From Deltaproteobacteria bacterium (lineage in GTDB: Bacteria > UBA10199 > JADFYH01), in assembly GCA_015233135.1 (NCBI GenBank), contig JADFYH010000015.1, positions 1 through 61,982 of the forward strand: a stretch of DNA of 61,982 bases. The letters are read 5' to 3'. This document shows positions 2,849 to 61,742 of the stretch, in pieces. Position 1 is the first letter of the stretch. The number at the start of each line of letters is the position of its first letter. The position numbers and the translations under genes were made by a program. The notes below the pieces were generated by a model. It was not told the origin of the DNA. It did no database searches and saw only the letters and a list, made by a program, of their open reading frames with translations.

Positions 2849-3358
2849 ATGAATAAAATAAAAGTACTCGCGGTTTTTTTTATCACGCTGATGCTCTCGT
2901 TCAACAGCTACGCCCAGGAAATGGCCTCTCGAAAATCGGTCGAGAAATTCATAGAATTGAGTGAAGTACAAAAAATGATGGACGCGATCTATTCGCAAAT
3001 CGACCGTTCTTTTAAAGGAATGGCCGACCAAATAGGAATATCGGAAAAAGAAAAACCAGCTTTTGACAAGTATACGAAAAAAGTTTCCGCTCTGGTAAAG
3101 AAGGAAGTCAGTTGGGAAAAACTGAAAGAACCTACCCTGGATATTTACAGCAAACATTTTACAGAAGTAGAAATTCAGGGCCTGATCGCTTTTTACAGCT
3201 CCGATGTGGGTAAAAGCATGGTCAAAAAAATGCCTTTGGTGATGCAAGATACGATGATAATGACGCAGGACATGATGAAAAGTATTTATCCAAAAATTCA
3301 AGATCTGGCTTTGGAAATGAAGACTGAAGTTGAGAAGCTTCGTAAGGGTAAAAAATAA
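2849..3358 (+). CDS. Exported DUF2059 family protein
   Basis: A 169-residue protein with a signal peptide (about 1-22, likely cleaved after S-Y-A). Its mature part is helical and of DUF2059 type, with the typical IQGLIAFYSSDVGKSMV-like segment in the middle. The start at 2849 is preferred over an upstream TTG because GGGAG lies 10 bases before it and it gives a clean signal peptide. Proteins of this family are periplasmic and of unknown function. It stands alone between the lipoprotein group and a convergent toxin-antitoxin pair. Confidence 0.85.
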   Translation: MNKIKVLAVFFITLMLSFNSYAQEMASRKSVEKFIELSEVQKMMDAIYSQIDRSFKGMADQIGISEKEKPAFDKYTKKVSALVKKEVSWEKLKEPTLDIYSKHFTEVEIQGLIAFYSSDVGKSMVKKMPLVMQDTMIMTQDMMKSIYPKIQDLALEMKTEVEKLRKGKK

Positions 3359-43930: not shown

Positions 43931-44638
43931 ATGCTTTCGAAATCTCAAGCTAGAATTTTTTTCTTAATCGGCACTTTGATCTTTGTCGGTTTTTTTATTG
44001 CACTCACTGTAGACACCCTTCGAAGGGTGCCCGAGCAAACTAAACAAGCACAAATGACCAACCAGGTTATGCTGGGAAAAGAACTCTGGGACAAAAATAA
44101 CTGCATGGGTTGTCACACCCTATTGGGTGAAGGGGCTTACTATGCTCCGGAACTCACCAAGGTTTATGAACGACGTGGTGCTGCTTGGATGAAGATGTTC
44201 ATTAAAGATCCCCAGGCGATGTTCCCGGGTGAGAGAAGGATGGTGAAGTACAATTTCAGTGATGCCGAAATAGACGCCCTCATCGCTTTTTTTAAATGGA
44301 TTGGAGGAATGGATCTCAATGGATTTCCTCCGAAGCCAAATATTCTCACGGCTCCTCAGGGACAAGCTTCTGGTCAAGCCTCTGCTCAGGCCTCTCTTGC
44401 GAGGACTAAAGCCCCCGAAAAATTTACTCAAATTTGCATTGCCTGTCATTCGCTGGGAGGACAAGGCGGAAAGATAGGCCCAGCGCTCGATGGCGTAGCT
44501 TCGCGTCGTGATTCAAAATATGTCAACGCCTGGTTACACGATCCTCAGGCCATTAAACCCGGAACACTCATGCCAAAATTGCCTTTGAGTGAAGGGGAGA
44601 TTGAGGAATTGGTAAAGTTTTTATCCGAGTTAAAATAA
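43931..44638 (+). CDS. norC: Nitric oxide reductase cytochrome c subunit, diheme NorC
   Basis: A 235-residue membrane-anchored cytochrome c that feeds electrons to NorB. One membrane anchor (about 8-30) precedes the classical NorC domain with heme motif C-M-G-C-H at 58-62 and MVKYNFSDAEIDALIAFF (in parts). An Ala/Gln/Ser-rich linker (about 138-158) leads to a second cytochrome c domain with C-I-A-C-H at 169-173 and a late Met ligand candidate (LMPKLPLS). Usual NorC has one heme and about 150 residues, so the second domain is a fusion. It is first in the norCBQD cluster. Confidence 0.9.
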   Translation: MLSKSQARIFFLIGTLIFVGFFIALTVDTLRRVPEQTKQAQMTNQVMLGKELWDKNNCMGCHTLLGEGAYYAPELTKVYERRGAAWMKMFIKDPQAMFPGERRMVKYNFSDAEIDALIAFFKWIGGMDLNGFPPKPNILTAPQGQASGQASAQASLARTKAPEKFTQICIACHSLGGQGGKIGPALDGVASRRDSKYVNAWLHDPQAIKPGTLMPKLPLSEGEIEELVKFLSELK

Positions 44639-44657
44639 GAAATATGAAAGGGATACT

Positions 44658-45995
44658 ATGAAATTTAAATCTCAAAAACTAGCCTACTGGTTTTTCGCTA
44701 CCTGCATGCTTTTGCTGAGCTTGCAAATACTCTACGGCTTCATCATGGCCTTTGACCGAATTGGTTTTGATGTGTTGCATCGCTGGATTCCCTTTAATGT
44801 TGCCCGAGCCACGCACACGAATCTGTTGGTAGTGTGGCTGCTGACCGGCTTCATGGGGGCGGCTTATTTTATTATTCCCGATGAGGCTGATCGTGAAATC
44901 TACTCTCTCCGTCTCGGAGTGCTGCAGCTTGTCTCACTCATCGTGGTGGGAGTCACTGCCATCATTGGTTTTCATTTCAACTGGTGGGAAGGACGAAAAT
45001 TTTTAGAGATTCCGAGACCTCTTGATTATCTGGTAGTCGTCAATGTCTTGATGTTTATTTTCAATATTGGAATGACGGTGTGGAAAGGGAAGCGTCATTC
45101 CACGACAAGCCTGGTGCTCTTCTTCGGCCTGCTTTCCGCCGCTCTTCTTTATCTGCCAGGAATGATCTATTTTACCAACCAAACCTTCGATTCCTACTTT
45201 CGTTGGTGGGTGGTGCACTTGTGGGTAGAAGGGGTGTGGGAGCTCATCCTGGGTTCCATCTTGTCTTACCTCTTGATCAAGCTCACGGGAGTGGATCGAG
45301 AAGTGATCGAAAAATGGCTGTATGTGATTATCGGACTCACTTTTCTTTCAGGAATTTTAGGGACGGGGCATCATTATTATTTCATCGGAACCCCCCGCTA
45401 TTGGTTATGGGTGGGTGGTTTTTTCTCAGCCCTTGAACCTTTGGCATTTTTGGGGATGGCCCTCTTTGCCATTTCGATGTACCGAAAAAGTGGGCGCAAT
45501 CATCCCAATAAAATTTCCCTCTATTGGACTATAGGCTGTGCCATCATGTCCTTTGTCGGCGCAGGTTTTCTGGGCTTCGCCCACACTTTGCCACAAGTAA
45601 ATCAATGGACGCATGGCACCCTCATCACCGCGATGCATGCTCATATGGCCTTCTGGGGCGCTTATGCCATGGTGGTTTTTGCCATCATCACTTACACCCT
45701 GCCTTTGCTGACGGGAAGAAAACTTTGGAACACCATGTCCGGACTTCTGGGTTTCTGGCTGAGTAACATCGGTATGCTGGGGATGACCGCTGCCTTTGCG
45801 GTGGCCGGCATTGCCCAAGTTTATCTGGAACGCAAAGAAGGTCTCGATTTTTTGCTCGTACAAAAAGAGATCTCCGTGCACTTTGTGGGGCTTTTGCTTG
45901 CCGCAAGCTTGTTCACGCTGGGGATCATTTGCTTTATCATCAATTTTATCCGTTACAGAACACCGAAAGACGAAGCCCTTGGAATGGAGCTTTAA
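44658..45995 (+). CDS. norB: Nitric oxide reductase large subunit NorB
   Basis: A 445-residue heme-copper-oxidase-superfamily membrane protein reducing NO to N2O. It has about twelve membrane helices and the expected ligands: the first heme b His in ARATHTNLL; the His and Glu of the non-heme iron site in VVHLWVEGVWE; the His pair in GTGHHYYFIG; Glu in FSALEPLAF; and His in THGTLITAMHAHMAFWG. Length fits the cytochrome-c-type cNOR, not the quinol-fused qNOR. It follows norC by 19 bases with AAAGGG upstream. Confidence 0.95.
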   Translation: MKFKSQKLAYWFFATCMLLLSLQILYGFIMAFDRIGFDVLHRWIPFNVARATHTNLLVVWLLTGFMGAAYFIIPDEADREIYSLRLGVLQLVSLIVVGVTAIIGFHFNWWEGRKFLEIPRPLDYLVVVNVLMFIFNIGMTVWKGKRHSTTSLVLFFGLLSAALLYLPGMIYFTNQTFDSYFRWWVVHLWVEGVWELILGSILSYLLIKLTGVDREVIEKWLYVIIGLTFLSGILGTGHHYYFIGTPRYWLWVGGFFSALEPLAFLGMALFAISMYRKSGRNHPNKISLYWTIGCAIMSFVGAGFLGFAHTLPQVNQWTHGTLITAMHAHMAFWGAYAMVVFAIITYTLPLLTGRKLWNTMSGLLGFWLSNIGMLGMTAAFAVAGIAQVYLERKEGLDFLLVQKEISVHFVGLLLAASLFTLGIICFIINFIRYRTPKDEALGMEL

Positions 45996-45996
45996 G

Positions 45997-46809
45997 ATGC
46001 GTCATGCTGCGCTGAAAGAACTTAATCCTCAGGAAGTTTTTCTGCCTTATTACCGTGCCATCAAAAAGGAATGCGAGGTATTTGAGCATGCTTTTCGACA
46101 CAAGCTTCCTTTGTTGCTCAAAGGGCCTACGGGTACTGGGAAATCACGCTTTGTGGAACACATGGCTGCAAAGCTAGGTGTGGGGCTGATCACCGTCTCC
46201 TGTCACGATGAAACCTCTGCGGTGGATTTATTAGGGCGTTATCTGTTGAAAGATCAGGAAACTCTTTGGCAAGATGGCCCGCTGACCCGCGCGGTACGGG
46301 AAGGAAAGATGATTTACCTGGACGAAATCGCTGAAGCGCGTCCCGATACCCTTGTGGTACTGCACTCGCTGACCGATTACCGACGTGAACTTTATCTGGA
46401 GCGCCACAATGAAACCTTGAAAGCCTCTGATTCTTTCATGCTCATTGCTTCTTTCAATCCGGGTTATCAGCGAGGCTTCAAAGAACTGAAACCCTCTACA
46501 CGACAACGCTTTGTGAGTTTGCACTTTGATACCCCTCAGGCGGAAATTGAGACGGAAATTATTCAGCAGGAAAGTGGCATTGAAAATGTTCGAGCGAAAT
46601 TCCTGGTGCAAATCGCGGGCAAAATCAGAAATCTGGTGGAGCTGGGGTTGACAGAATCTGTCTCCACTCGTCTTTTGGTCGATGCAGCCAAACTAATAAA
46701 ATCGGGTTTGTCACCCCGACTGGCTTGTGAAGTAGCAATTCTGGAGCCTCTCACGGATGATCGAGAGACGGTGAAGGCTTTAAAGGATTTGGTGGCCTTT
46801 GTGTTTTGA
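45997..46809 (+). CDS. norQ: MoxR-family AAA+ ATPase NorQ
   Basis: A 270-residue NorQ/CbbQ-type AAA+ protein that, with NorD, activates NorBC by helping metal-cofactor insertion. Walker A is GPTGTGKS, Walker B is MIYLDEIAEA, sensor 1 lies around LIASFNPGYQ, and STRQRFVSL contains the arginine finger region. ATG at 45997 is 1 base after the norB stop, and an upstream in-frame extension inside norB is not needed. It overlaps nothing and precedes norD by 8 bases. Confidence 0.95.
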   Translation: MRHAALKELNPQEVFLPYYRAIKKECEVFEHAFRHKLPLLLKGPTGTGKSRFVEHMAAKLGVGLITVSCHDETSAVDLLGRYLLKDQETLWQDGPLTRAVREGKMIYLDEIAEARPDTLVVLHSLTDYRRELYLERHNETLKASDSFMLIASFNPGYQRGFKELKPSTRQRFVSLHFDTPQAEIETEIIQQESGIENVRAKFLVQIAGKIRNLVELGLTESVSTRLLVDAAKLIKSGLSPRLACEVAILEPLTDDRETVKALKDLVAFVF

Positions 46810-46817
46810 GATTTCTT

Positions 46818-48557
46818 ATGGAACTCGACCAACTTCTTTTCAGCAAAATTTCCTCCTTCTACCGGCGTCTTCGTGCGCCCAAAGTTGAGGCGAAACTTGA
46901 GGCTCAAACAGTGAGATTGGAAGAACTGAGAGCTCCGCTTTGTCTCTTGAGCAAAGTGCTGACTGGGAGACCTATTGAAATTACGGCCGCGGAGGAAGAA
47001 GGAGGATGGCGAGACGATGTATTTTTTCTTCCTTGCAGTTTTTCATTGGGCTCTTCTCGGGAAGAGAATGAAAGCTATTACCTGTTTCGCGTGGCTTATT
47101 TAGCCATGCAAAAACAATTGGCTTACAATTTTCCAGATCATCAATCCTTTTCCCTCGAAGAAGCTCGCCGGCAGGCGCAGGCAACGAGCGGCTTTGTGCT
47201 ACAACAACTTTTTAAGGAATACCCTTCCCTTAAAAACATTTATCAAGCTCTCCAGACTGCACTTCAAGATAATCTCCATTATTTATGGGGGCACTGGATG
47301 AGTTCTAAGGCTGTTTCTAGCGCCGTAGAAAAAAAAGAACCCCCCGCAGAAAAGATTTCTTTCCCAACTGAAATTTTGACCGAATTGAAATCCAAACCTC
47401 GAGAAGAAGTGGAAGTTTTGGAACTGAATCAAAAAGCAATGGAAGATTACAGCCTAGGGCACAGCTTCGAAAAAGTGGAAACCTTGGAAGAATTCAAAGG
47501 CAATTGGAGAGATTGCGATGGAAGTGATGATTTGCAAGCTCACGCCGAGGCCTTGAATGAGCTTGATCTGCGCCAGCTGCTTCGTGTGGATCAGACCACT
47601 CACTCTATGCTCCAGGCCGATTTTTTATCGCTAGGGGCCCTGAGTGAAAGCAAGGAAATATCCAGGGAGGCTTACTTTGAAACTTATGACGAATGGAATT
47701 ATCAAAAACGAGAATATCGTAAAAATTTCTGTAAAGTTTTCCCTCAAAAATTTACAAAAACTAATCCGCCTCTCAGAGAAAAAGTCTTGCAAGATTATGG
47801 GATAACCCTGAAACAACTCAAAAAAAAATTTTCATCCCTTTGGACGGAACGCGAACTGCACAAGCGTCAGAGTGAGGGAGTGGAAATTGATTTGGATGCC
47901 CTCGTTGAAAATTATGCAGACCGGGCGGCAGGGAAAACGCCCTCTGAAAAAGTGTATCTGAATTCTCGCAAAACCCAGCGGGACATTGCTCTTATTCTTT
48001 TGATAGACCGCAGTTTGTCCACCGATTCTTTTACCCAGAATCAGCGCATTCTGGAGGTGGAAAAAAACTCCGTTTTTTTATTTTCTGAACTTTTGTACGA
48101 AGCGGGGGACCCTTTTCAAATAGATGCCTTTTCTTCACAAACCCGAAATCACTGTGACTACCTCACCCTCAAGTCTTTTCAAGATTCCTGGAATCAAGCT
48201 CAGGGTCGTTTGGCGGCACTGGATACTTTAGGCTATACCCGGATTGGGCCCGCCCTTCGTCATGCCAGTAAAATTCTTCAAGGTTTGAAGGCCAAACGAA
48301 AATGGATCCTCCTGCTTTCGGATGCTAAACCCAATGACTACGATAGGTACGAAGGAGAGTATGGGATCCAAGATGTACGCCAGGCCATTCGCGAGATGAA
48401 TCAGAAAAGTATTCAGCTTTATGCCTTGGCGGTTGAGTCTCAAGCCAGACATTATCTGCCTCGTATGTTGGGGCAAAATAATTTTAAAATTTTACCAAGA
48501 CCCGAATTACTGCCTCGGGCATTAGGTGAGTTTTATTGCCGATTGAAAGTCTGTTAA
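46818..48557 (+). CDS. norD: NorD-like VWA protein
   Basis: A 579-residue partner of NorQ. The N-terminal 350 residues are helical. The C-terminal VWA domain (about 385-575) has the metal-ion-dependent adhesion site D-R-S-L-S in ILLIDRSLST, a later Thr in LGYTRIGPAL and Asp in LLLSDAKPND. ATG at 46818 is preferred to TTG at 46806, which overlaps norQ. With NorQ it forms a MoxR-VWA chaperone pair; a fused, much larger version of this logic is found at 52359-61742. Confidence 0.92.
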   Translation: MELDQLLFSKISSFYRRLRAPKVEAKLEAQTVRLEELRAPLCLLSKVLTGRPIEITAAEEEGGWRDDVFFLPCSFSLGSSREENESYYLFRVAYLAMQKQLAYNFPDHQSFSLEEARRQAQATSGFVLQQLFKEYPSLKNIYQALQTALQDNLHYLWGHWMSSKAVSSAVEKKEPPAEKISFPTEILTELKSKPREEVEVLELNQKAMEDYSLGHSFEKVETLEEFKGNWRDCDGSDDLQAHAEALNELDLRQLLRVDQTTHSMLQADFLSLGALSESKEISREAYFETYDEWNYQKREYRKNFCKVFPQKFTKTNPPLREKVLQDYGITLKQLKKKFSSLWTERELHKRQSEGVEIDLDALVENYADRAAGKTPSEKVYLNSRKTQRDIALILLIDRSLSTDSFTQNQRILEVEKNSVFLFSELLYEAGDPFQIDAFSSQTRNHCDYLTLKSFQDSWNQAQGRLAALDTLGYTRIGPALRHASKILQGLKAKRKWILLLSDAKPNDYDRYEGEYGIQDVRQAIREMNQKSIQLYALAVESQARHYLPRMLGQNNFKILPRPELLPRALGEFYCRLKVC

Positions 48558-50394: not shown

Positions 50395-52386
50395 ATGGGA
50401 TATTTGTGTAAAGCAATTCGGTCGAGCAAAACTTTTTTTGTCTTATTAGCAGTATTATTTTTCGATGTTGGCAATCCTTCTTTGCTTCGGGCTGGCCCTT
50501 CTAAAGCACACGGCGAAGCTCCTCCCGCTGAGGAAAGTTCTTCGTCCGATTTTTATGTAAGCCCTGCGGGCAATGACTCGAATCATTGCCTCAGTGCCGA
50601 TTCGCCCTGCCTGAGTATTGGTGCTGCCCTCTCAAAAACCAGGGGGGGGTCTGGTGCAAAGACCATCCATCTCGCAGTGGGAAATTATTCCAGAGTTAAT
50701 GGCAGTTTTGCTGGTGAGAGGATGCCTATCACAATTCAGGGGCATAATGCCTTGGACACCCGTATCGATGCACGCGGTGAAGGGGGAGCCGTCAATTTGT
50801 CCGATTCAGCATCGGTGTTTACTTTGCAGGATTTGGCTATAGTGAATGGACATGGGGCCGAAACTTACACTCTTGGAGGGGGCATTTATAACAATGGGAC
50901 CCTCAACCTGATCCGTGTTGCCCTCATGAACAATCGGGCAAATAACGGAGGAGGAATTTATAATACTTCTTCAGGCCGGCTGAAAGTAGAAGATTCCAGC
51001 ATTAGCTCAAACGTTGCTGAAACAGATGATTTGGGCAATGGCAATGGGGCCGGCATTTATAATGCTGGATTTTTAAGTTTGTTAAATACCACCCTTTCTT
51101 TTAATTGGGCCGCTGGAGGGGGCGGTGGGCTTTATGCGGTAGCCGGTTCTCGCAATAAACTGGCCTTTACCACGGTGAGCGTGAATGCTGCCAATGCCCA
51201 GCGCACCACCACTGGAAGAGGAGCCGGAATTTATTTGGAGAGGGAGGCTTCTCTGGATTTGAAAAATTCTCTGGTCGCTAGCAATGCGAATGGAACGGGT
51301 TCGCCGACCACTCCTACTACCGAATGGGGAGATTGCAATATTGCACCTTTGCTGGCAGCAGGCCCCAGCCAAACTGAAATTATTAATTTGGGTACCAATT
51401 TTATTGCAGCGGATGCCTGTCATTTTCCTCCCGAAGCAGGAATTGTAGGCAGCCCAACCTCGCCCGAAGACGCCAAGCTGGGCCTGCTTTTCTACAATGG
51501 CGGCTCCACCATCACACAGGCACTTCTGGCAGAGAGTCGGGTCAACACACAAGTGAGTGGAGAAGATTGCAACGATCTTTCAGCGCCTCCCATCCCCGTA
51601 ACCCATGACCAACGCGGTGTTGCACGTCCGTTGGGATTTTCTTGCAGTTCAGGGGCCTTGCAGGCCTCGCCCCTGTTGATTCCTATTTATTTGGCAGGGA
51701 CACCCCCTGTCGAACAGCCTTTGGCAACTCTCAATTTTGGGGATGTGCTTGTGGGGACCACGAGTTCACAATTAGTACGAATCAAAAATATGGGCCAGTT
51801 TCCTTTAACTCTGACCCCTGTTCTGACCCCTGCCGGCATGTTTAGTGCAAGTGCTGTCCCTCTGGATCCTGCGCACCCGGGCAGTGCGGGTGTAGAGGCG
51901 TGTAACAATGTATTACCCACTCATTCCTGTTTTATTCGTCTTGATTTTAGTCCCAGCGCGGTGGGGGCCGCCATCACCCGTTTGACCTTTACGGGAAATA
52001 ATCCCGCAGCTTTTGACTCCATCACCGCTGTCAACATCAGCGCAAATGCCGTTGCGACAGCAGATCATCTTGCTCCTGCTTCCGCTTCGAGTGGCGATGA
52101 AACTGGAGGAGGCGCAGGGGCTGCTGCTCCCACTCCCACTGCTGCTACTCCCAGTTCTGGTTCAGATCTTGCTCCTACTGTTGCCCCGGCGCATCCTGCA
52201 CAAAATTCGAATACTGCCGCAGAGGTTGGAACCACTCCCCCTGAAAGTACTGACAAGAGCAGCAGTTGCAGCCTGGCCCTAGCCTCCTCCAACTCGGCCA
52301 GCGTTGTTTGGATATTTTCGCCTTTGCTTTTGCTGGGATTGAGATTAAGAGGCTTCGCTTATCGATTTCTTAATCTTTCTTCCTGA
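50395..52386 (+). CDS. Secreted beta-helix protein with choice-of-anchor domains and sorting tail
   Basis: A 663-residue surface protein. Signal sequence about 1-33. A right-handed beta-helix (about 50-300) carries GGGIYNNGTLNL, NNGGGIYNTSSG and GAGIYNAGFLSL repeats like Pmp/choice-of-anchor Q proteins, then DQRGVARPLG...CSSGALQ. An ASH/choice-of-anchor-D-like beta-domain (about 442-555, LNFGDVLVGTTSSQLVRIKN) follows, then an Ala/Pro/Thr-rich stalk. The C-terminus (CSLALASSNS, hydrophobic helix, LRLRG) parallels the tail of the protein at 30818. GGGAG precedes the ATG. The 3' end overlaps the giant gene by 28 bases. Confidence 0.82.
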   Translation: MGYLCKAIRSSKTFFVLLAVLFFDVGNPSLLRAGPSKAHGEAPPAEESSSSDFYVSPAGNDSNHCLSADSPCLSIGAALSKTRGGSGAKTIHLAVGNYSRVNGSFAGERMPITIQGHNALDTRIDARGEGGAVNLSDSASVFTLQDLAIVNGHGAETYTLGGGIYNNGTLNLIRVALMNNRANNGGGIYNTSSGRLKVEDSSISSNVAETDDLGNGNGAGIYNAGFLSLLNTTLSFNWAAGGGGGLYAVAGSRNKLAFTTVSVNAANAQRTTTGRGAGIYLEREASLDLKNSLVASNANGTGSPTTPTTEWGDCNIAPLLAAGPSQTEIINLGTNFIAADACHFPPEAGIVGSPTSPEDAKLGLLFYNGGSTITQALLAESRVNTQVSGEDCNDLSAPPIPVTHDQRGVARPLGFSCSSGALQASPLLIPIYLAGTPPVEQPLATLNFGDVLVGTTSSQLVRIKNMGQFPLTLTPVLTPAGMFSASAVPLDPAHPGSAGVEACNNVLPTHSCFIRLDFSPSAVGAAITRLTFTGNNPAAFDSITAVNISANAVATADHLAPASASSGDETGGGAGAAAPTPTAATPSSGSDLAPTVAPAHPAQNSNTAAEVGTTPPESTDKSSSCSLALASSNSASVVWIFSPLLLLGLRLRGFAYRFLNLSS

Positions 52387-55300
52387 GCCTTTTTAATCAG
52401 GGCGATGATGCTCGATACAATATCCGAACCATCTTGTTTAATGATTTTGCGATTCATGCCCTTGAAGTTTCTATCCAAACTTTGCTCGGTGACATAAGCC
52501 CCCATGGCAAGCATCATGATCTGTACACCGGTCGCTTTGGCGTCGGCCTGAATTTGCTCCATGCTTCGATGATGGTCAGACCCATCGTCTCCATCTGAAA
52601 TGACGATGATCATCTTGGTGCCAGAGTTGTTGCCTTTCATGGCCTCCAAGGCCTTGTCGATGGCCTTTCTAATGTCGGTACCGCCTCCCATAGCATGGAA
52701 GGCTTCTTGCTTTTTATTCAGTACCTTGTTTTTTTCTTGATAAGACCCAGTGGGTGCCCCCAGGGGTTTTGTCCATTCTGCGCCATTTGCAAACACAATT
52801 TCTCCATAGTCGATACCCAGAGTTTCGCAAAAGAAAATGAGCGTGGCAGACCCCGCCAGGGCCTGATTGAGGGCAGGGGCCATCGAACCCGAAACGTCGG
52901 AAACCAGGATGATTTGGGCCTCGTATTGTCCGGGCTCCGCATTGTTCTGAAAGACACGGCCTGTGGGCACTGCTCTCATTTCGTCTTGCGCCGCGGCCTT
53001 TACATCCATTTGAGGGCCTCGAGCGACCGGGCCATCTCGCTCACTGGGATTGTCCGGAGGAATGAGGCGATGCAATTCTGCCAAGGCATTACTTGTTTCT
53101 GTATCTTTAGGGCGATGCTTCTCAAAAAGTCCCAGGTCTTGTGTTGCAGCGGCTTCAACTTGCTGCATTGCATTCTTTAGGGCCTCTAAATCCTGAGGGC
53201 TCATGACAATATCGGGAGGAGGGGCTGCTTCCTCTGCGGCTTCCGCTTCGTCTGCCTCTGCTACCTCTGCCTGTTTATCCGCATGAGCGGCTCTGTCTTT
53301 TTCTCTTTCTGCTTCGCCTCTTGCCCCTTTATTTTGTTTATCCAGGGCTGCTGGTCCTGCTTTTCCGGGCTTTCCAGGCCTTCCGGGCTTTCCCGGTTTT
53401 GCTGCCCCGGGTTTTGCTTGGCCTTCGGCTGCATCCCCCGCAGCGTCTCCCTCTTCGGCCTCATCGCTGTCTTGCTCTTGCTGTGCGGCTCGTGCCTTTG
53501 CCACCTCTTCATTATTCATTCTTTTAAGGGCAGGAGAATGCGGTTCAAACTCTTCGGCCATTTTTTCGGCACGATTTTCTAGCACTTGCTGGGCAATTTC
53601 TTTTGCTTCCTCGGATACACGAGGATTTGTTTCTGAGTCTCCCTCGGCCTCGGATTCTTGTCCTTCTCCTTGTCGCTGGCCTTGCCCCTGTTGTTGCTGG
53701 GCCATTTGTTCCAACATCTCTTCTAAATGCTCTAAGAGCTGTTCTACAATTTCTTGAGGGGTTTTTCCTTCGTTCAACATTTGTTGAATCAGGTTTTGAA
53801 CGTAGTTCATTCCTTTGGGTAATAATTGTTCAAAAATAGGATAAGCAGATTCTAAATGGCGGCAGAATTCGTCCAGGCAATCCTGGCGTTCCTGGGCATT
53901 AATTTCTTGAGGAAAGGCCTCAAACGCCGGCTTTAGCAGAGGGCAGGCTTTTTCCAGGGCCTCATACACATCCGGGTCCGTAACCCACAAAGGGATATTC
54001 CCATGGTAGGCATAATAGGCCAGGGCGTAGCAGAATTGCTCGTGGGGAAGATAGCGGCCCATTTTATGGTAATATTCATCCGTATAGGCTTTCGGTTGCG
54101 AAGTGCCTTCAAAGGCGGTCATCTGTTCTTCAAATTCGCTTTTTGCCATGAGCTTTTCACCCATGCGTCGCACAAAATTATTCATGCGTCTTTCTCCCGC
54201 CGCATTGAATAAAAAGCCATCGATGGCATTGCGATGCCAACGTGGCACCACTCCATCAATCACTAGATGGGCCCACTCGTGCTTGCCAATGCCCAGCGCG
54301 GCTTTCAGGGGCCGGGTGAGGAGATCGCTCAAGCCTATGGTGATTTCTTTCGATTGAGGGTTGGCAAAATTTTCCTCGCCCAAGTTGAAATTAATTTTAA
54401 AAGCTTTGCCGGTGGCCAACATAATTTCCCGCTGAGTTCTCTCTGTGAGATAGCGAATAACTCTCTCCAGCTTTTTTCTTGTGGCAGCAGAAATGGGGAC
54501 CAAGGCCCCGCGGGCATCTCTTTCGGCATAAACCCATTGCCCTTGTTGTTGAACCACTACCAACCTTGCAGGCAGTTGAAACTGCTGAGTTTGAAAATCG
54601 GGATGGATATTCAGCGTTACCGCTTGAGCTTCTGGGCCTGGATCTTGTGCCGTGATATTTTTAAACACGGCAGGCCCCACGGGGTTGGTTGTTGCCTCCT
54701 CATCCACAGCAGGCGCTGCAGTAGTTGACACTCTTTCTTGATAAGCAATGCCTGCACCTGCCAGAGGAGCGGGTTGGTTCATCATGTGCTTCACAATTTC
54801 AGCCCGGTCTCCGGTGCTCATTCCAAAATCGTCCATCAGATACATCACCGCCACACGACTCATGGCCGCGCCCGATTGCTGATTGCGGCCGGCATATTTT
54901 CCAAAGGGGGGATTGGAACTCATGACGATGAGTGATTTTTTGTCTCTCTCAATACGGGCATAAGGATTTTTTAAGTAGAGGGCCTTATCGCTATCCAGCA
55001 AAGGGTTGAAGATGCCTTCCACTTTGGGAGGATCAGCCAGCAAAAATTCATCCAAGAGCAGCACAGAGGGTCTCGTGACCGCTCGGTGTACTTTTCCTGG
55101 CGAAAAATTGTATTCGCCTGTGAGGGGATTTTTTCTCAAGCCTCCCACCAGTTCGGTTTCATCGCTATTGGCGCTGAGGGTGTGGTCGATAAATTCATAG
55201 CCCAAAAGTTTGGCCAGTTGTTCAGGGATTGTGCTTTTTCCTTCACCAGCTTCGCCCAACAACATTACGTCGACACCCAGGGAGTGATTCCATAAAATTT

Positions 55301-58300
55301 CATCCACGACATTGAGCGCTTGGCGAGTCCACACAAAACTCTTTGCAGCGAGGGCCCTGCCAGGAAGATAATTTTTGTAAATTTCTTCGAGAGTGGGTTG
55401 AGGAATGTTTTGAGGGCCTATCGCCTCTGCATGCCAGTGCATGGCCGTGGCATAATCTTTAAAGGTGGTTTTGATTACCTCCCAAACACGGTCTCTATCG
55501 GCCTTGTCGGCCAGGGGCAGGATATATTCTGCGCGCAAGGCCCTGTTTAAAACCGCAGGGGTGATTTGCGGGCTCGCCGCCAGACGTTGAGACAGGCGCA
55601 AAATGGAGCGCGGGGTAAATTCCACTTTTTGTTCCACCCCACTTCCCAGGGGAGTGATAGGCGGCGCCCCTTGGGCAGCTTTGATCATGTGCTCGTGAAA
55701 AACAACCAGGCGTTGAGAGAGATCCTGGCTCCATCTTCTCTTCCCTTTGTTGTGGCATGCAAACAGTTTTTCAACCACTTCCAGGGTTTCCTCGAAGGTC
55801 CAGGGGCCTACATACATCGATACAAAACGCCTGAGAAAATCGGGGCCATGGTCATGGCGTCCCAACTGACCGGTACCGTTTTCGGTGGCATAGACGCGGA
55901 AGGCCGGATGAACAGGTTTTCTTACCAGCTCTCCTTTTTCGTCATAAGTCCAAAAATAATCGGAGTGCTGGATGATATTATTCAAGGCCGCCAGGGTCCC
56001 CGGTTTTGCCGTATCGGGTTCATCCAACACTGCATGAAAGCCATGTTCCATGGCGACGGTCAAAGGCCCGGGAATGAAGACGGGGGCCAAAACAGCTCCC
56101 ACTTTCTTCATACCCCAAACACCCACGAGTTCATCGGAATCCGTTCGTTTTGAGAAGGGCACGCGAAGCAAGGGCACACCCATAGCAGAGGCGATGATTT
56201 CAGGGAGCGTGGTTTTGGCGGTTCCTGGCGGGCCAAATAAACGGATAGCGACCGCTTTGTTCAAATTAATGAGCGAGGCAATTTCATCCAGCATTCCCAA
56301 AAAACGCGCAAAGAGCACGACCTTGGGCATTTGAGGAATCAGCCCGCGATATTCTTTGGGAATGCTATGCAGCGGGCGGCGGGGGAGTTCCTTGTAATAA
56401 TTTTTGGGGGCCTTAAAGGCCTGTGGATTGCTCAGGGCTGGGTCTTTCTTTACGCTGCGAATCATCCAGCAATTGGCTCGGTTAGGATCTTTTAGGAAGG
56501 CCATTTGATAATCTGGCCCTGTGTGCGTGATTTGATTAGTGAGATAATTGTTTCCGTTAATGATTAAACCATCCCCCTTGGCCAGAGTTTGGGTGCCTGT
56601 GAAGTCTACGGGAGGTTGAGTTCCTGCCAAATTGGCAGAGCGTGTGATTTGAATGACATTGAAAGAATCACCACCAAGTATCCTGCCATTCATAACCATT
56701 ACATTTCTACCACCATTGATGGGATTTTTTAAACGTGTGATTTCCAAATTCCCCTGGGCATCCATTTTAAAACTGATTTCTGCCTCATTGTTGCTCTCAT
56801 TCATACTTAGAGCTGCAGACTCAATATTCATAAAGTAAGGCTTGTTCGCAACCAGCTCTTTGGCGCCGCTGGGTATTCCGATGAGCTTGGAGCTGACACT
56901 GTCACTGGTCGTGCCGGAACTTTTAGCGATTGCTTTATTTTGAATATACCAGCTCTGTAGATCGGCAGCATCTTGTACGAGCTCTGCAGCAGCATGAATG
57001 TCTAAACGAATATCCTGAATGGTGCTGTGTCCAATTCGAATACAATTTGCCCGCTTGTGAGTGGGGTTAAAAACAGGTTTAAAATAGGGGATTTTTATTT
57101 TTGTTTTTCTTCGTATTTGTTCGGTAGTTCCATTGTGAGCAAGGTAAAGCTGAGTGCCATTGCTAGAATGGTCGTCCTCAATGTTAAGGAGTCCGTCTTT
57201 ATCAATTTGGAGCGTTAAATGCTCGCCACTGACCATGGCATCTGCAATGGAAATATCACAGGCAAAATGACGTCCAATGCTAAAAACTTTTTCGGGTGTA
57301 AGTTCGAAACGTTGAGCGGGGCTAATAATAAAGGGATTGGCTTCTTCTTTGGGCGCCTCCATTTTTTCTACATTTCTTAAAATCCATATATTTTCTTGCC
57401 CCTCTTCTTCCGAAGCGACAATTTCTGCTGCAGCGCTGTAGTTTTTTCGTCTATCTTCCAAATACTGTCGGCCAAAAGACAGGGTGGCTCCAGGCGGGAT
57501 AACTTGAGAGCGATTTGCTGGCAACCTGCTATAGTCAGAGTCAGGTGCCCCCTTGTTTTTAAAATAAGTTCCATTACTGGAATCCCTGTCTACAATGTCC
57601 AAGGTACCGTCAGGCCGCAGCGTCAGCCTAAAATGCTTGCGACTGACTCGGTCGTCCTGGGGTGTAAGGATATGATTGTCTCCTTCTCGGCCAAAAGAGA
57701 TTACTTGTCGGGGGATTACAGAAACAGGCCCGCAGTAACACTCCAGATTAGTCAGGGTGTAAAGGTTGGGATTGCTGGAATTGCGGACCAAAACAAAAGG
57801 ACCCTTTTTATTTTTGATATTGTTGACAAGGGTAAAATCCACGGAGGCAGTAAAAGAAATAGGAGTAGGAGAAGGCTCTAAAACTTTTTCTACACGGGTT
57901 AGGCTTCCGCTGTTTTCATCATAAACGGGGTAGAACACTTTTATCTGGTCTTGGCCCTCCGGAATTTCCAAACTGATCATCTGCCCCATGCTATAGTCGA
58001 GTTCAATTTTGAAATTTTGAGCGAGTTGATAACGTTGCCCCGCTTTTAAAACGTGTGATTCTGGAGGAAGCCGACGCAAACGACCCACGGCTTCTATCCC
58101 GGACAATTCCGAGGGCAGGTTGCCATCCAAGGGGAGGGCCTCCACAATTTTTTTCAAATGATGAATTCCGGCGATGGCTTCCTTCAAATCTTCTTGAGCG
58201 GCAAATCTCAAGAAGAGGGGTTCGATGGTGTTATTCACATCTTTATATTTTTGGGCCAGGGCATCTGCCTTCAGGCTTTCGGCTATAGCAGCCAGTGAAT

Positions 58301-61300
58301 CGGGGGCCGGAGCTTCGGCAACACTCACCTCGGGATCTGTCAGATCCGATTCTATTGCAAAACCAAACTCAAAATTCTTTTCTTTCAATTGAGCCAGAAA
58401 GTCCGTGACAATTTCAGGATCATGAACCTGGCGCAAAACCAGTAAAACAGCCTCTTTCCCAAGGGCGTCTAAATCTGTTGTGGCAAGAAGAATTCTATCC
58501 AGCACCGGTTTCCACCAGAGTGCGGGGCTGGGAAGAGTAACTTTGGTTTGAACCTCCTCTTTTTCCACCATTCTTTCCAGGGCTCGTTTCACCTTAAGGC
58601 GTTCTTCTTTGGTCTTTTGAAAACGGCCAAAAAGCAATTCGCCACCCCAGACGACCGCACGGGTTCCCAGTTCGATGGAGTCTCGCTTAATCATTTCCAG
58701 CCACCAGCCAATATGGTTAAAACCAAAATGGATGGGATCGAGCCGTTCGCCTTTTCCTGCCTCTTCGTAATCTTCTTTGACGGTATTGGGAAAGACATTC
58801 ATCTGTCGGATCAAATTTTCTGAAAGGGCCATGCCTACCTGCAAGAGAGGCACTTCAATGGGGGTGGAGACGGCAGAGTCATCCTCTGTTTCACTTGCAA
58901 GCTCACTTGCCTTGGGTGCAGCGGCTACTATTCCTATAATTGCACTAAAAGCGGCACCTAAGGCCCACCAAAAACCCTGGCCCATGTGTTGTACTGCCTG
59001 TGTGTGGCAGCATCGGGCCATTTGGCTTCCCAACAAGGTAGCCAGCCCCATCGTGACCGCAATGGGGAGCACTGCTGCGGAACCAGGGAGTAGAGATTCT
59101 TTTTTTGAACTGCTGAAGTTTTCAGCAATCCTTGTACGCCTGCAGTCGGCGCTTCTTGTTCTGCCTCCTGTTGCTGTTGCTCGTGCCTGCTGTGCCCCTT
59201 GTCCCCAGGGAGCCGCGTTGTCATTCTCTGCATTTTCGGAAGGAAGGCTGAAGTTCGCTGGAGTGCTACTGGGCAAAGGAGTGGGGGAGTACAAGGGGGC
59301 TGCGGGAGGAGTTGCCTCATGAAGTGGAGCTAAGGTGGACCCCTCTCCCGAAAATGCTCTCGCATTTTCCTCTCCCGCAAGGGGCGAGGGAGTATTGGGA
59401 AAGGAAACTTCTTGAGTTGGATGTTCGGCTAATTCTCTCCTCACGCGCTTTTGCACGGCACGGGATAAATTTCTGCGCGAGATATTTTCGGTCTCAAGCA
59501 GATAGCGCAATCGTTGGGTTGCAAGCTCTACAGGCGCATGCACTTTTGCCAGGGCTCGATCAATAATCCGTAAGCGTCTCTTTGCTTCGCTCAGATAAGT
59601 GTGCTGCTCCTCGTGTTCGTAACGGGAAACGAGGTTTAAGAGGAAGGGGCTGTATCCTCTGTCATTGGTTTTGTCGTTCTGGCGAATGCCAGAATCTTCA
59701 TGGATTGAATTTGTTGCCCCTGTATCCAGTGAAATCCCCGTGAAGATTCCGGCCTGCGCCGGGATGACAGAGGATGCCAGATAATTTGCAATAGCAGAGA
59801 CACTCACCCTTTTCTCAGTGTTTGAATTCACAATCGCCTGAATGAGCAGATGGGTGCCAATTGCAGCGGCTTCGGGACTTGTCCGTTCTATCTGTAGCTG
59901 TTCCAGCGCCTGGGTAATTTCTAATCTTGTGTTTTCAGAAATGTGCTGTTGCAGTTGCTCCAGGGTTCCGCCACTGTGATGAAATTGAAGCAGCCAGGGG
60001 AGGAAAATGTTTTGATCGAGCTGCCAGTTTATTTTGTCATCTCGAGCGATGGCGAGAGATCCAGTGGATTCACTTGAAAGGAGACTCACTGGATCTCCCA
60101 TTGCCACTGCGTCTTCATTCGAGAGGGCCTGATTTTCTTCTAATTGCTGGCTACTAAATTCCGACAAATGCTGCAAAACCTCCCCAAACTCCTCTTGCAA
60201 GGTTTGCAGTTGAAGCTGGGTGACTCGGGTTTCTATTCGGGTGGTAAAGTGTCTTCCAAATTCTCCCTGAGGATCTGCGGCCAATTCTCCGGTGGCGTTG
60301 TTTCCTATTTGCCACCACCACTGGGCAGTGAGGTTGTTTGATTCATTGACTCCCAAGAGATGCTTTACAATCTCGATGCTACCCATTCCACATTCTGTTA
60401 AAATATCGCTCCAGAAATGAAACTGATTGCCCAGCAGCCGAATCAGGCCTCTTCTTAATTCTCTCACTCCTGTTTCTGAGACTTCCCCCAAAACGGCGCT
60501 GCGTGCCACTCTCCCCGTTAAGCCCTCCATCTTCACCGCCACCACTCCGCACATGGCTCCGGTCACAAAGGCCTCTCCAAATTCTGCAATCACTTCCCGG
60601 GGGCTCTGGCTACGTCCCAGGTAGAACTCATGTCCCATTTGTACCACCACCTGGAAAAGCCCGTTGACTCCTCCGCTGCAGACTGCCACTCCTAGACTTC
60701 CCAATCCCATCCGGGTGGCGATTAAGGTTGCGATGCTACCCGCAATGGCTGCTCCCACGCCTATCAAAGGGGAGATGGCTTCAAAGCGAGTAGTGGCTAA
60801 AAAGGGAAGGGCGCTGCGAAGGGTTTGTCTGAACTCGAGGGCCCCGGCGGCCGATCGCAAATCGTTTTGCAATAAATGCTGAATTTCAGCGCGGTGGCTG
60901 CTTTCTCGGGGCAGGCCTTCCAGAATTCCCTGAATCGTATTTACCGAAATGACTCCGGCTCTTTCTCCCCGCGTCTGCCAGGCTCGGGTTCCAAAATCTC
61001 TCAGATTATGAAGGGTAGAAAAGAGGTCCAGTCTCAAGCGCTGCACGCTACGGTCAAAGGCCACTCGGTCGGCGTGACCTTCCACAAGCCTCATCACGCC
61101 TTCGGAGGTGATGGTTTCAAGATCAGACACAAAGCCACGATTTTCTTCGATCATCTTTTGACAAAAAGAAATCCCTCGGGCCTCTACTGCCGACGAAGAC
61201 AAAGACAAATCGGAGACCGAGTTCAGATAGGCGACTAGGGCCTGAGAGGTTTCATCCTGGGAGTGTAGTAAATCAGCGACGACTGCATCGTGGGATATTT

Positions 61301-61742
61301 GTTGAAGGGCATCCAGTAGGGGCGCCCCTCTGTGGTCGCCCGCAATGGGATCTTCAATTGACGGGCGGGCACTGAGGCCCGCCCCTACATAATGTTCAGC
61401 CAGGTGTTGCAACACCGTTTGCACTCTCGCCTGAAGCTCTCGCGAGCCTTCCTGGGGATATCTCAGCGCATAGCGTTCCATCAAGACGGGAGCAAGGACA
61501 GAGGTTACTTCTCCCAGCCGCCTTTCCTTGAGCAAATTCAATTCCAGACTTTGGGCATCGCTGCGTGAAATTTCTCTTCCCCGAATCATTTCTTCTAATC
61601 GAATGCGTAGATGTGCAGGATCCAGCCGGCGCAGGGCCTCTCCCTGGGGATCCGAAGGATTCGTATTGGCCGAAACCCTTGGGGTGGCTTCTGTGTGCAA
61701 GTCTGTGTGGAGGCTTGTTGCCAGGTTGACATGTTGAACCAT
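52359..61742 (-). CDS. Giant FHA - MoxR - MoxR - HExxH - VWA protein
   Basis: One uninterrupted 3,127-codon gene. Visible order: helical N-terminal region (1-640) with a glycine-rich hydrophobic stretch near 320-400; repeat-derived inserts near 119-143, 657-690 and 782-803; two hydrophobic helices (about 886-908 and 923-943); FHA-like domain 1 (GREGDNH at 1350, SSNGT at 1387); FHA-like domain 2 (SIGRHFACD, SSNGT at 1530); MoxR AAA+ 1 (GPPGTAKT, Lys1843; AVLDEPDTA); AAA+ 2 (GEAGEGKS, Lys2169; SVLLLDEFLLA); HEWAH at 2488-2492 with Glu2517; acidic and collagen-like linker (about 2650-2860); VWA with D-V-S-G-S at Asp2949. AAGGGG precedes the ATG. It resembles fused MoxR/VWA systems and, in layout, eukaryotic midasin. 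Function is unknown. Confidence 0.85.
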   Translation of the reverse strand: MVQHVNLATSLHTDLHTEATPRVSANTNPSDPQGEALRRLDPAHLRIRLEEMIRGREISRSDAQSLELNLLKERRLGEVTSVLAPVLMERYALRYPQEGSRELQARVQTVLQHLAEHYVGAGLSARPSIEDPIAGDHRGAPLLDALQQISHDAVVADLLHSQDETSQALVAYLNSVSDLSLSSSAVEARGISFCQKMIEENRGFVSDLETITSEGVMRLVEGHADRVAFDRSVQRLRLDLFSTLHNLRDFGTRAWQTRGERAGVISVNTIQGILEGLPRESSHRAEIQHLLQNDLRSAAGALEFRQTLRSALPFLATTRFEAISPLIGVGAAIAGSIATLIATRMGLGSLGVAVCSGGVNGLFQVVVQMGHEFYLGRSQSPREVIAEFGEAFVTGAMCGVVAVKMEGLTGRVARSAVLGEVSETGVRELRRGLIRLLGNQFHFWSDILTECGMGSIEIVKHLLGVNESNNLTAQWWWQIGNNATGELAADPQGEFGRHFTTRIETRVTQLQLQTLQEEFGEVLQHLSEFSSQQLEENQALSNEDAVAMGDPVSLLSSESTGSLAIARDDKINWQLDQNIFLPWLLQFHHSGGTLEQLQQHISENTRLEITQALEQLQIERTSPEAAAIGTHLLIQAIVNSNTEKRVSVSAIANYLASSVIPAQAGIFTGISLDTGATNSIHEDSGIRQNDKTNDRGYSPFLLNLVSRYEHEEQHTYLSEAKRRLRIIDRALAKVHAPVELATQRLRYLLETENISRRNLSRAVQKRVRRELAEHPTQEVSFPNTPSPLAGEENARAFSGEGSTLAPLHEATPPAAPLYSPTPLPSSTPANFSLPSENAENDNAAPWGQGAQQARATATGGRTRSADCRRTRIAENFSSSKKESLLPGSAAVLPIAVTMGLATLLGSQMARCCHTQAVQHMGQGFWWALGAAFSAIIGIVAAAPKASELASETEDDSAVSTPIEVPLLQVGMALSENLIRQMNVFPNTVKEDYEEAGKGERLDPIHFGFNHIGWWLEMIKRDSIELGTRAVVWGGELLFGRFQKTKEERLKVKRALERMVEKEEVQTKVTLPSPALWWKPVLDRILLATTDLDALGKEAVLLVLRQVHDPEIVTDFLAQLKEKNFEFGFAIESDLTDPEVSVAEAPAPDSLAAIAESLKADALAQKYKDVNNTIEPLFLRFAAQEDLKEAIAGIHHLKKIVEALPLDGNLPSELSGIEAVGRLRRLPPESHVLKAGQRYQLAQNFKIELDYSMGQMISLEIPEGQDQIKVFYPVYDENSGSLTRVEKVLEPSPTPISFTASVDFTLVNNIKNKKGPFVLVRNSSNPNLYTLTNLECYCGPVSVIPRQVISFGREGDNHILTPQDDRVSRKHFRLTLRPDGTLDIVDRDSSNGTYFKNKGAPDSDYSRLPANRSQVIPPGATLSFGRQYLEDRRKNYSAAAEIVASEEEGQENIWILRNVEKMEAPKEEANPFIISPAQRFELTPEKVFSIGRHFACDISIADAMVSGEHLTLQIDKDGLLNIEDDHSSNGTQLYLAHNGTTEQIRRKTKIKIPYFKPVFNPTHKRANCIRIGHSTIQDIRLDIHAAAELVQDAADLQSWYIQNKAIAKSSGTTSDSVSSKLIGIPSGAKELVANKPYFMNIESAALSMNESNNEAEISFKMDAQGNLEITRLKNPINGGRNVMVMNGRILGGDSFNVIQITRSANLAGTQPPVDFTGTQTLAKGDGLIINGNNYLTNQITHTGPDYQMAFLKDPNRANCWMIRSVKKDPALSNPQAFKAPKNYYKELPRRPLHSIPKEYRGLIPQMPKVVLFARFLGMLDEIASLINLNKAVAIRLFGPPGTAKTTLPEIIASAMGVPLLRVPFSKRTDSDELVGVWGMKKVGAVLAPVFIPGPLTVAMEHGFHAVLDEPDTAKPGTLAALNNIIQHSDYFWTYDEKGELVRKPVHPAFRVYATENGTGQLGRHDHGPDFLRRFVSMYVGPWTFEETLEVVEKLFACHNKGKRRWSQDLSQRLVVFHEHMIKAAQGAPPITPLGSGVEQKVEFTPRSILRLSQRLAASPQITPAVLNRALRAEYILPLADKADRDRVWEVIKTTFKDYATAMHWHAEAIGPQNIPQPTLEEIYKNYLPGRALAAKSFVWTRQALNVVDEILWNHSLGVDVMLLGEAGEGKSTIPEQLAKLLGYEFIDHTLSANSDETELVGGLRKNPLTGEYNFSPGKVHRAVTRPSVLLLDEFLLADPPKVEGIFNPLLDSDKALYLKNPYARIERDKKSLIVMSSNPPFGKYAGRNQQSGAAMSRVAVMYLMDDFGMSTGDRAEIVKHMMNQPAPLAGAGIAYQERVSTTAAPAVDEEATTNPVGPAVFKNITAQDPGPEAQAVTLNIHPDFQTQQFQLPARLVVVQQQGQWVYAERDARGALVPISAATRKKLERVIRYLTERTQREIMLATGKAFKINFNLGEENFANPQSKEITIGLSDLLTRPLKAALGIGKHEWAHLVIDGVVPRWHRNAIDGFLFNAAGERRMNNFVRRMGEKLMAKSEFEEQMTAFEGTSQPKAYTDEYYHKMGRYLPHEQFCYALAYYAYHGNIPLWVTDPDVYEALEKACPLLKPAFEAFPQEINAQERQDCLDEFCRHLESAYPIFEQLLPKGMNYVQNLIQQMLNEGKTPQEIVEQLLEHLEEMLEQMAQQQQGQGQRQGEGQESEAEGDSETNPRVSEEAKEIAQQVLENRAEKMAEEFEPHSPALKRMNNEEVAKARAAQQEQDSDEAEEGDAAGDAAEGQAKPGAAKPGKPGRPGKPGKAGPAALDKQNKGARGEAEREKDRAAHADKQAEVAEADEAEAAEEAAPPPDIVMSPQDLEALKNAMQQVEAAATQDLGLFEKHRPKDTETSNALAELHRLIPPDNPSERDGPVARGPQMDVKAAAQDEMRAVPTGRVFQNNAEPGQYEAQIILVSDVSGSMAPALNQALAGSATLIFFCETLGIDYGEIVFANGAEWTKPLGAPTGSYQEKNKVLNKKQEAFHAMGGGTDIRKAIDKALEAMKGNNSGTKMIIVISDGDDGSDHHRSMEQIQADAKATGVQIMMLAMGAYVTEQSLDRNFKGMNRKIIKQDGSDIVSSIIALIKKAQEERLRNR
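59338..59395. repeat. REP-like palindrome inside the giant gene
   Basis: CCCCTCTCCC...CCTCTCCCGCAAGGGGCGAGGG lies in frame and encodes T-P-S-P-L-A-G-E-E-N-A-R-A-F-S-G-E-G on the minus strand, near residues 782-803. It belongs to the CCCTCTCC family found in der and lnt. Confidence 0.75.
59672..59772. repeat. VIPAQAGI-type inverted repeat inside the giant gene
   Basis: Inverted arms GTCGTTCTGGCGAATGCCAG and its diverged complement (ending CCTGCGCCGGGATGAC) enclose about 60 bases. The minus-strand translation contains S-V-I-P-A-Q-A-G-I and S-G-I-R-Q-N-D, the familiar readout of a widespread intergenic repeat. It is in frame near residues 657-690. Confidence 0.85.
61316..61388. repeat. GTAGGGGCG-bounded hairpin repeat inside the giant gene
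   Basis: The 9-base ends GTAGGGGCG (61316-61324) and CGCCCCTAC (61380-61388) are perfect inverted repeats. Inside are two hairpins, including GGGCGGGC-actgag-GCCCGCCC. It resembles a common bacterial intergenic repeat and is read in frame as residues about 119-143. Confidence 0.75.

Follow-up and report, generated by a model that had tools for sequence, protein, structure and literature searches.

The window analysed here, that is, the whole stretch of 61,982 nucleotides of contig JADFYH010000015.1 from a Deltaproteobacteria bacterium, carries one uninterrupted open frame of 3127 amino acids, here called P0001, as an earlier note made from the letters alone had claimed. The frame lies on the minus strand, the opposite strand of the same interval being full of stops, and its GC bias by codon position persists throughout apart from the region around residues 801–1000, which adjoins one of two palindromic-repeat-like inserts. 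P0001 joins two FHA domains, two AAA+ modules, a domain with a HExxH motif, a low-complexity linker and a C-terminal VWA domain, and we conclude that it belongs to a bacterial family of midasin-like MoxR-VWA proteins, as a member with FHA domains and two AAA modules. The most significant new result lies outside the window, in two metagenome-assembled genomes (MAGs) of the same class, which encode relatives with six AAA modules in a single chain.

The domains of P0001 were called from a Pfam profile scan together with motif positions, and their coordinates are collected in Table 1. AAA_5 (E 6e-31) and FHA (E 3e-17) were each matched twice, and VWA/VWA_CoxE was matched at E 4e-8, which with the motifs bears out the proposed order FHA-FHA-AAA-AAA-HExxH-linker-VWA. 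The residues predicted to read phosphothreonine (GR, SxxH and NG) are present in both FHA domains, as FGREGDN at 1350, SRKH at 1367 and NGT near 1390 in the first, and as IGRH at 1489, SGEH at 1505 and NGT near 1528 in the second. Both AAA+ modules have intact Walker A and Walker B motifs (GPPGTAKT at 1837 and VLDE at 1905; GEAGEGKS at 2163 and LLLDE at 2228), and their place in the MoxR clade is indicated by AAA_5 matches over the cut-off in each and by a pair of strands that follows helix 2 in each of the two predicted structures. The predicted structures give AAA+ folds, as had been supposed, and a VWA fold as well; when the predicted AAA pair (predicted local distance difference test score 78) was searched with Foldseek, all 50 hits listed were dynein or Rea1, spanning both modules, with the pair aligned to two adjacent AAA modules of these proteins. 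The HExxH domain carries HEWAH at 2488–2492 and a conserved N-x3-(E/D)-x-R-x-N motif, its model shows strands and helices in a zincin-like order, and no Pfam family, peptidase families included, matches it even at E<=10; it represents a conserved domain hitherto undescribed. The linker, which the earlier note called acidic/Gly-Pro, is of low complexity and contains much Gln, Gly, Ala and Pro; with 23–27% of Asp and Glu it is only moderately acidic and does not reach the acidity of the D/E-rich region in midasin. The metal ion-dependent adhesion site (MIDAS) comprises DVSGS at 2949, the Thr of GGGTD at 3019–3023 and an Asp of ISDGDD at 3048–3053.

Table 1. Features of P0001 and of the neighbouring nitric oxide reductase type genes, with positions in the window.
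Feature	Position	Strand	Basis
P0001, complete open frame, 3127 aa (ATG 61742, stop 52359)	52359..61742	-	ORF (open reading frame) translation; codon-position GC bias
N-terminal half, residues 1-1300; hydrophobic residues 322-355 and 883-945; two repeat-like inserts	57843..61742	-	Pfam, motif scan
FHA domain 1, residues 1348-1411, canonical GR / SxxH / NG	57510..57701	-	Pfam, motifs
FHA domain 2, residues ~1478-1533, canonical GR / SxxH / NG	57144..57311	-	Pfam, motifs
AAA+ module 1, residues 1805-2075, 'odd' type, predicted helix-2 beta-hairpin insert	55518..56330	-	Pfam, predicted structure
AAA+ module 2, residues 2133-2344, 'even' type	54711..55346	-	Pfam, predicted structure
HExxH domain, residues ~2394-2531	54150..54563	-	family alignment, predicted structure, Pfam
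Low-complexity linker, residues 2660-2890, rich in Gln/Gly/Pro/Ala	53073..53765	-	sequence composition
C-terminal VWA, residues 2904-3090, complete MIDAS	52473..53033	-	Pfam, alignment, predicted structure, motifs
Nitric oxide reductase type genes with ordinary NorQ/NorD-like pair (context, not part of the machine)	43931..48557	+	ORFs, Pfam

The N-terminal half matches no Pfam family over the cut-off along residues 1–1300; its residues 996–1167 are conserved in a relative from genome G021 (L042). The two in-frame inserts of this half (minus strand, about 59640–59790 and 59325–59393) read SVIPAQAGI...DSGIRQND and TPSPLAGEENARAFSGEGS, the former containing the palindrome TCATCCCGGCGCAGGCCGGAAT, and from their letters both look like translated palindromic repeats. 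As to dispersal of the insert at residue 655, just one partial second copy was found genome-wide.

Relatives were sought among 385 genomes sampled around the source genome (G000), about 45 of which belong to its class. A contig scan with P0001 alone as the query returned no relatives, but a profile built from relatives did find them. The full core AAA-AAA-HExxH-linker-VWA occurs in a minority of the class genomes, namely twice in G000 and also in G010, G015 and G044, with pieces of it in G021, G027 and G042, and outside the class in one sampled genome only, G305. The fused proteins of G010, G015 and G044 and that of a second gene of the source genome, on contig C6, align end to end with the P0001 core at 22–23% identity. 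L042 (2154 aa, truncated by a contig end) holds in one frame an N-terminal half, the AAA pair and the start of the HExxH domain, and in G027 a single frame runs from the AAA pair through the HExxH domain to the linker, with the VWA at the end of a different contig. The search for homologues of the same order recovered the core fused elsewhere, and the FHA-AAA junction is the only one found nowhere but in P0001. Further relatives were found in MAGs of Candidatus Anammoxibacter, Planctomycetaceae and Gemmataceae; in the planctomycete MAGs two adjacent genes divide the parts between them, one encoding the AAA portion (which in Anammoxibacter comprises HEAT and two AAA) and the other HExxH and VWA. 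Since the planctomycete genes join HExxH and VWA, the HExxH domain is to be counted with the VWA half, at the place of the N-terminal domain of NorD. The HExxH motif is kept in every aligned member covering that region, planctomycetes included, and an E/D residue is conserved 29 residues downstream of it.

Several members show peculiarities of their own. The C6 gene (95762–100468 of the contig; L046 3763–8469, minus strand) has the order HEAT-AAA-AAA-HExxH-VWA and is followed by a gene for a Calx-beta repeat protein; its first approximately 45 codons lie in a repeat of about 130 bases that also occurs at some 16 further contig ends, and a mobile element is therefore probably located at or in its 5' end. 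The G027 relative (L043, 690–2822, plus strand) extends about 700 residues beyond its VWA, an extension with no Pfam match. The even AAA modules of the HEAT branch (L040, L044, L045 and L046) carry degenerate Walker motifs (GPPAxSKS and NEAN), whereas both sites of P0001 are intact.

Two relatives, L039 in G044 (4,347 aa) and L040 in G015 (5,347 aa), are complete single frames with three odd/even AAA pairs, hence six AAA modules, the pairs being separated by HEAT-containing stretches and followed by one HExxH domain and then one MIDAS. Sensitive searches of both revealed no fourth or hidden AAA pair, and a third relative, L041 in G021, shows five AAA modules, its contig ending inside the third pair. 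To our knowledge, six AAA modules and an adhesion domain in one chain were previously known only from eukaryotic midasin. The repeated units share 87–92% DNA identity in L039, 78–88% in L040 and 75–81% in L041, and in the tree of AAA modules the copies from one protein cluster together. Because the units differ by 8–22% in DNA and group by protein, triplication probably happened more than once, and judged from these sequences the AAA pairs look like products of repeated lineage-specific triplication or of concerted evolution. Assembly artefact was considered for the six-AAA frames and rejected, given these differences between units and the unbroken frames of 13–16 kb amid ordinary bacterial genes. 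The arrival at three pairs argues for a six-AAA ring as the working unit, and the ratio of six AAA to one VWA in L039 and L040 is the same as in NorQ6NorD1 and in midasin.

The likeness to midasin extends to sequence. With L039 as the phmmer query against all PDB chains, midasin was the only match at E<=1e-5 (E 3e-48), and the odd and even AAA profiles scored 140 and 152 bits on midasin AAA3, against 60–78 bits for CobS, NorQ, CbbQ and dynein as a whole, a comparison in which the good conservation of its AAA3 may give midasin an advantage. The HExxH-VWA profile scored 74.5 bits on the midasin MIDAS, 58 on CobT and 35 on NorD. The midasin-type AAA lid PF17867 was detected in 2 of 241 genomes, both times in members of this family, and in 0 of 14 control genomes; it is matched in L039, L040, L045 and L052, with no Pfam match to it in P0001. 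In the reverse search with yeast Rea1 AAA3, family modules ranked first (114, 109, 106 and 100 bits), and in a tree from which dynein domains were left out the even modules group with Rea1 AAA2/3 with moderate support (90/71), Rea1 AAA1 falling elsewhere. A strong claim of midasin sisterhood was not accepted, since the Rea1 AAA3 scores of the best family modules are barely above those of some single MoxR proteins (98 bits for two single-domain ones, 87 for the NorQ of the window) and Rea1 AAA1 is placed elsewhere; we claim likeness in layout and mechanism, not in descent. The midasin-like layout seen in the earlier note holds, yet was understated, as the family includes single chains with six AAA modules and a MIDAS.

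P0001 is rather probably an ATP-driven remodelling machine that carries a ring motor and a substrate-holding hand in one chain. In NorQD as seen by cryo-electron microscopy, six NorQ subunits surround a single NorD finger that occupies the pore, the N-terminal domain of NorD forms a second anchor and the linker is stretched (PMC13036017); in Rea1 the MIDAS docks onto the ring, and adaptors are pulled (PMC11603028). On this pattern, the two consecutive predicted MoxR-type modules of P0001 would supply the motor, and the HExxH domain, flexible linker and MIDAS-bearing VWA the hand. With two AAA modules only, a monomer cannot close a six-AAA ring; if such a ring is the working unit, P0001 would need three chains and probably closes it as a trimer, a task that the relatives would accomplish in one chain through their three pairs. 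The VWA would then dock at the pore of the ring, either inside or on it, and its metal site may hold a client or adaptor by an acidic residue; ATP hydrolysis would pull or twist the client through the linker, and the HExxH domain may serve as a second attachment point, in the position that the N-terminal domain has in NorD. In this lineage the FHA pair would recruit the machine to partners phosphorylated on threonine. A tethered-hand remodeller with FHA targeting added is the simplest reading, because P0001 has the parts of NorQD and Rea1 in one chain.

Several observations weigh against this account. A trimer of P0001 would confront a single pore with three VWA domains, and, as the even modules are degenerate in several relatives, the ATPase sites need not all be active. 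The AAA modules of P0001 are divergent and scored 38–39 bits in the Rea1 AAA3 search, below many ordinary MoxR proteins. The neighbours of the members examined include a beta-helix protein, phosphoglucose isomerase (PGI), a fatty acid desaturase, a mechanosensitive channel and peptidases; the conserved neighbours that the earlier note had proposed to look for were not found at these loci, and none of the genes names a client.

The main rival to the remodeller is an ATP-dependent metalloprotease, in which the AAA ring would unfold clients captured by the MIDAS and the HExxH domain would cut them, as FtsH combines AAA and M41. The retention of HExxH in all aligned members, the conserved downstream E/D and the zincin-like model are consistent with it, but no Pfam peptidase family matches the domain, the motif could be conserved for structural reasons, and the MoxR-VWA systems described to date remodel rather than degrade, so that we regard a protease as rather unlikely. 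A chaperone for metal or cofactor insertion, of the NorQD or CobST kind but built as a single chain, would explain the pairing of MoxR AAA+ with VWA, and among the VWA partners of MoxR proteins CobT and NorD match next best; it is nevertheless improbable, as no metalloenzyme operon lies beside the members examined and, in the source genome, a distinct NorQ/NorD pair already accompanies the cytochrome c-dependent nitric oxide reductase genes. Slightly more doubtful still is membership in the MoxR-vWA ternary systems of biological conflict (Kaur et al. 2020), which the combination of MoxR with vWA and a weak bpMoxR similarity recall: P0001 scores 18.3 bits where the bpMoxR cut-off is 27, and no VMAP, iSTAND, FtsH or beta-propeller partner was found in the neighbourhoods examined, the upstream side of P0001 being cut by the contig end. 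A chimeric assembly or read-through of separate genes, brought to mind by the adjacent planctomycete halves and the two repeat-like inserts, is very improbable, because every core junction recurs in one frame in independent genomes, the core is also fused in the second gene of the source genome, and codon bias is even along P0001.

The remodelling ATPase with all parts in one chain proposed in the earlier note stands with respect to its AAA+ and VWA in midasin-like order, and not as regards FHA regulation as a general rule. FHA control as a family trait was rejected: no FHA match was found in L042, the only relative with an available N-terminal half, and HEAT repeats are present in that region of other fused members. 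Because the FHA domains are not conserved in the family, the predicted phosphopeptide regulation is a local elaboration of the P0001 lineage. Seven Ser/Thr kinase domains over the cut-off were found in the source genome when kinases were searched for, as had been suggested, and these could supply phosphothreonine for the FHA pair.

Elsewhere in the window, the nitric oxide reductase type genes comprise a cytochrome c, a COX1/NorB-like protein, NorQ (45796–46809) and a NorD-like VWA protein (46806–48557), so that a MoxR-VWA pair of the ordinary split kind sits a few kb away from the fused giant. A convergent gene (50395–52386, plus strand) encodes a predicted exported beta-helix/choice-of-anchor protein, and there is an overlap of 28 bases between its end and that of P0001.

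The textbook examples of six AAA modules in a single chain, midasin and dynein, have been regarded as eukaryotic. Living bacteria now show steps towards concatenated AAA rings, from two genes through a fused pair to a fused triple pair, and triplication to exactly six AAA was apparently repeated. The origin of such rings becomes testable, and smaller bacterial proteins become available for study of how a tethered MIDAS domain works with its ring. We propose, tentatively and as the less probable possibility, that bacteria independently built single-chain six-AAA midasin-like machines by tripling a MIDAS-linked AAA pair, that split (planctomycete), two-AAA (P0001) and six-AAA forms coexist, and that eukaryotic midasin has its nearest prokaryotic relative, and perhaps its source, in a HEAT-bearing member. 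No bacterial midasin-like chain, and none of the order that the earlier note had thought undescribed, was found in the literature searched, subscription papers and preprints lying outside the search, so that the novelty is provisional.

Among known systems, midasin (Rea1/Mdn1) is the eukaryotic ribosome-assembly machine, a remodelling ATPase of the pre-60S particle, and we know of no particle of that kind in bacteria. P0001 shares with midasin AAA modules of the same class, a D/E-containing linker and a C-terminal MIDAS in one chain, the VWA following a low-complexity region that is moderately acidic in P0001; midasin is also the best PDB match of the VWA and AAA profiles of the family, and L039 and L040 share its six modules. 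P0001 differs in having two AAA modules, not six, the family has a HExxH domain and FHA or HEAT in place of the 1700-residue linker of midasin, and the six-AAA bacterial relatives arose from young repeated pairs. The dynein heavy chain likewise has concatenated AAA modules and provided top Foldseek matches of the P0001 AAA pair, but it has no VWA and its sequence match is far weaker than that of midasin. The MoxR-vWA ternary systems combine a MoxR AAA+ with a vWA co-chaperone, as P0001 does, yet they are treated as separate genes (Kaur et al. 2020, PMC7159879) and include a third component, and P0001 falls below the bpMoxR cut-off. NorQ/NorD and CobS/CobT are encoded by two genes with one AAA per chain, in contrast to the single frame of P0001, they match the family more weakly in sequence than midasin does, and the NorD of the window has no HExxH, unlike P0001. 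NorQD nevertheless sets six AAA against one VWA (PMC13036017), as do L039 and L040 and as midasin does with its six AAA and one MIDAS/VWA (PMC11603028).
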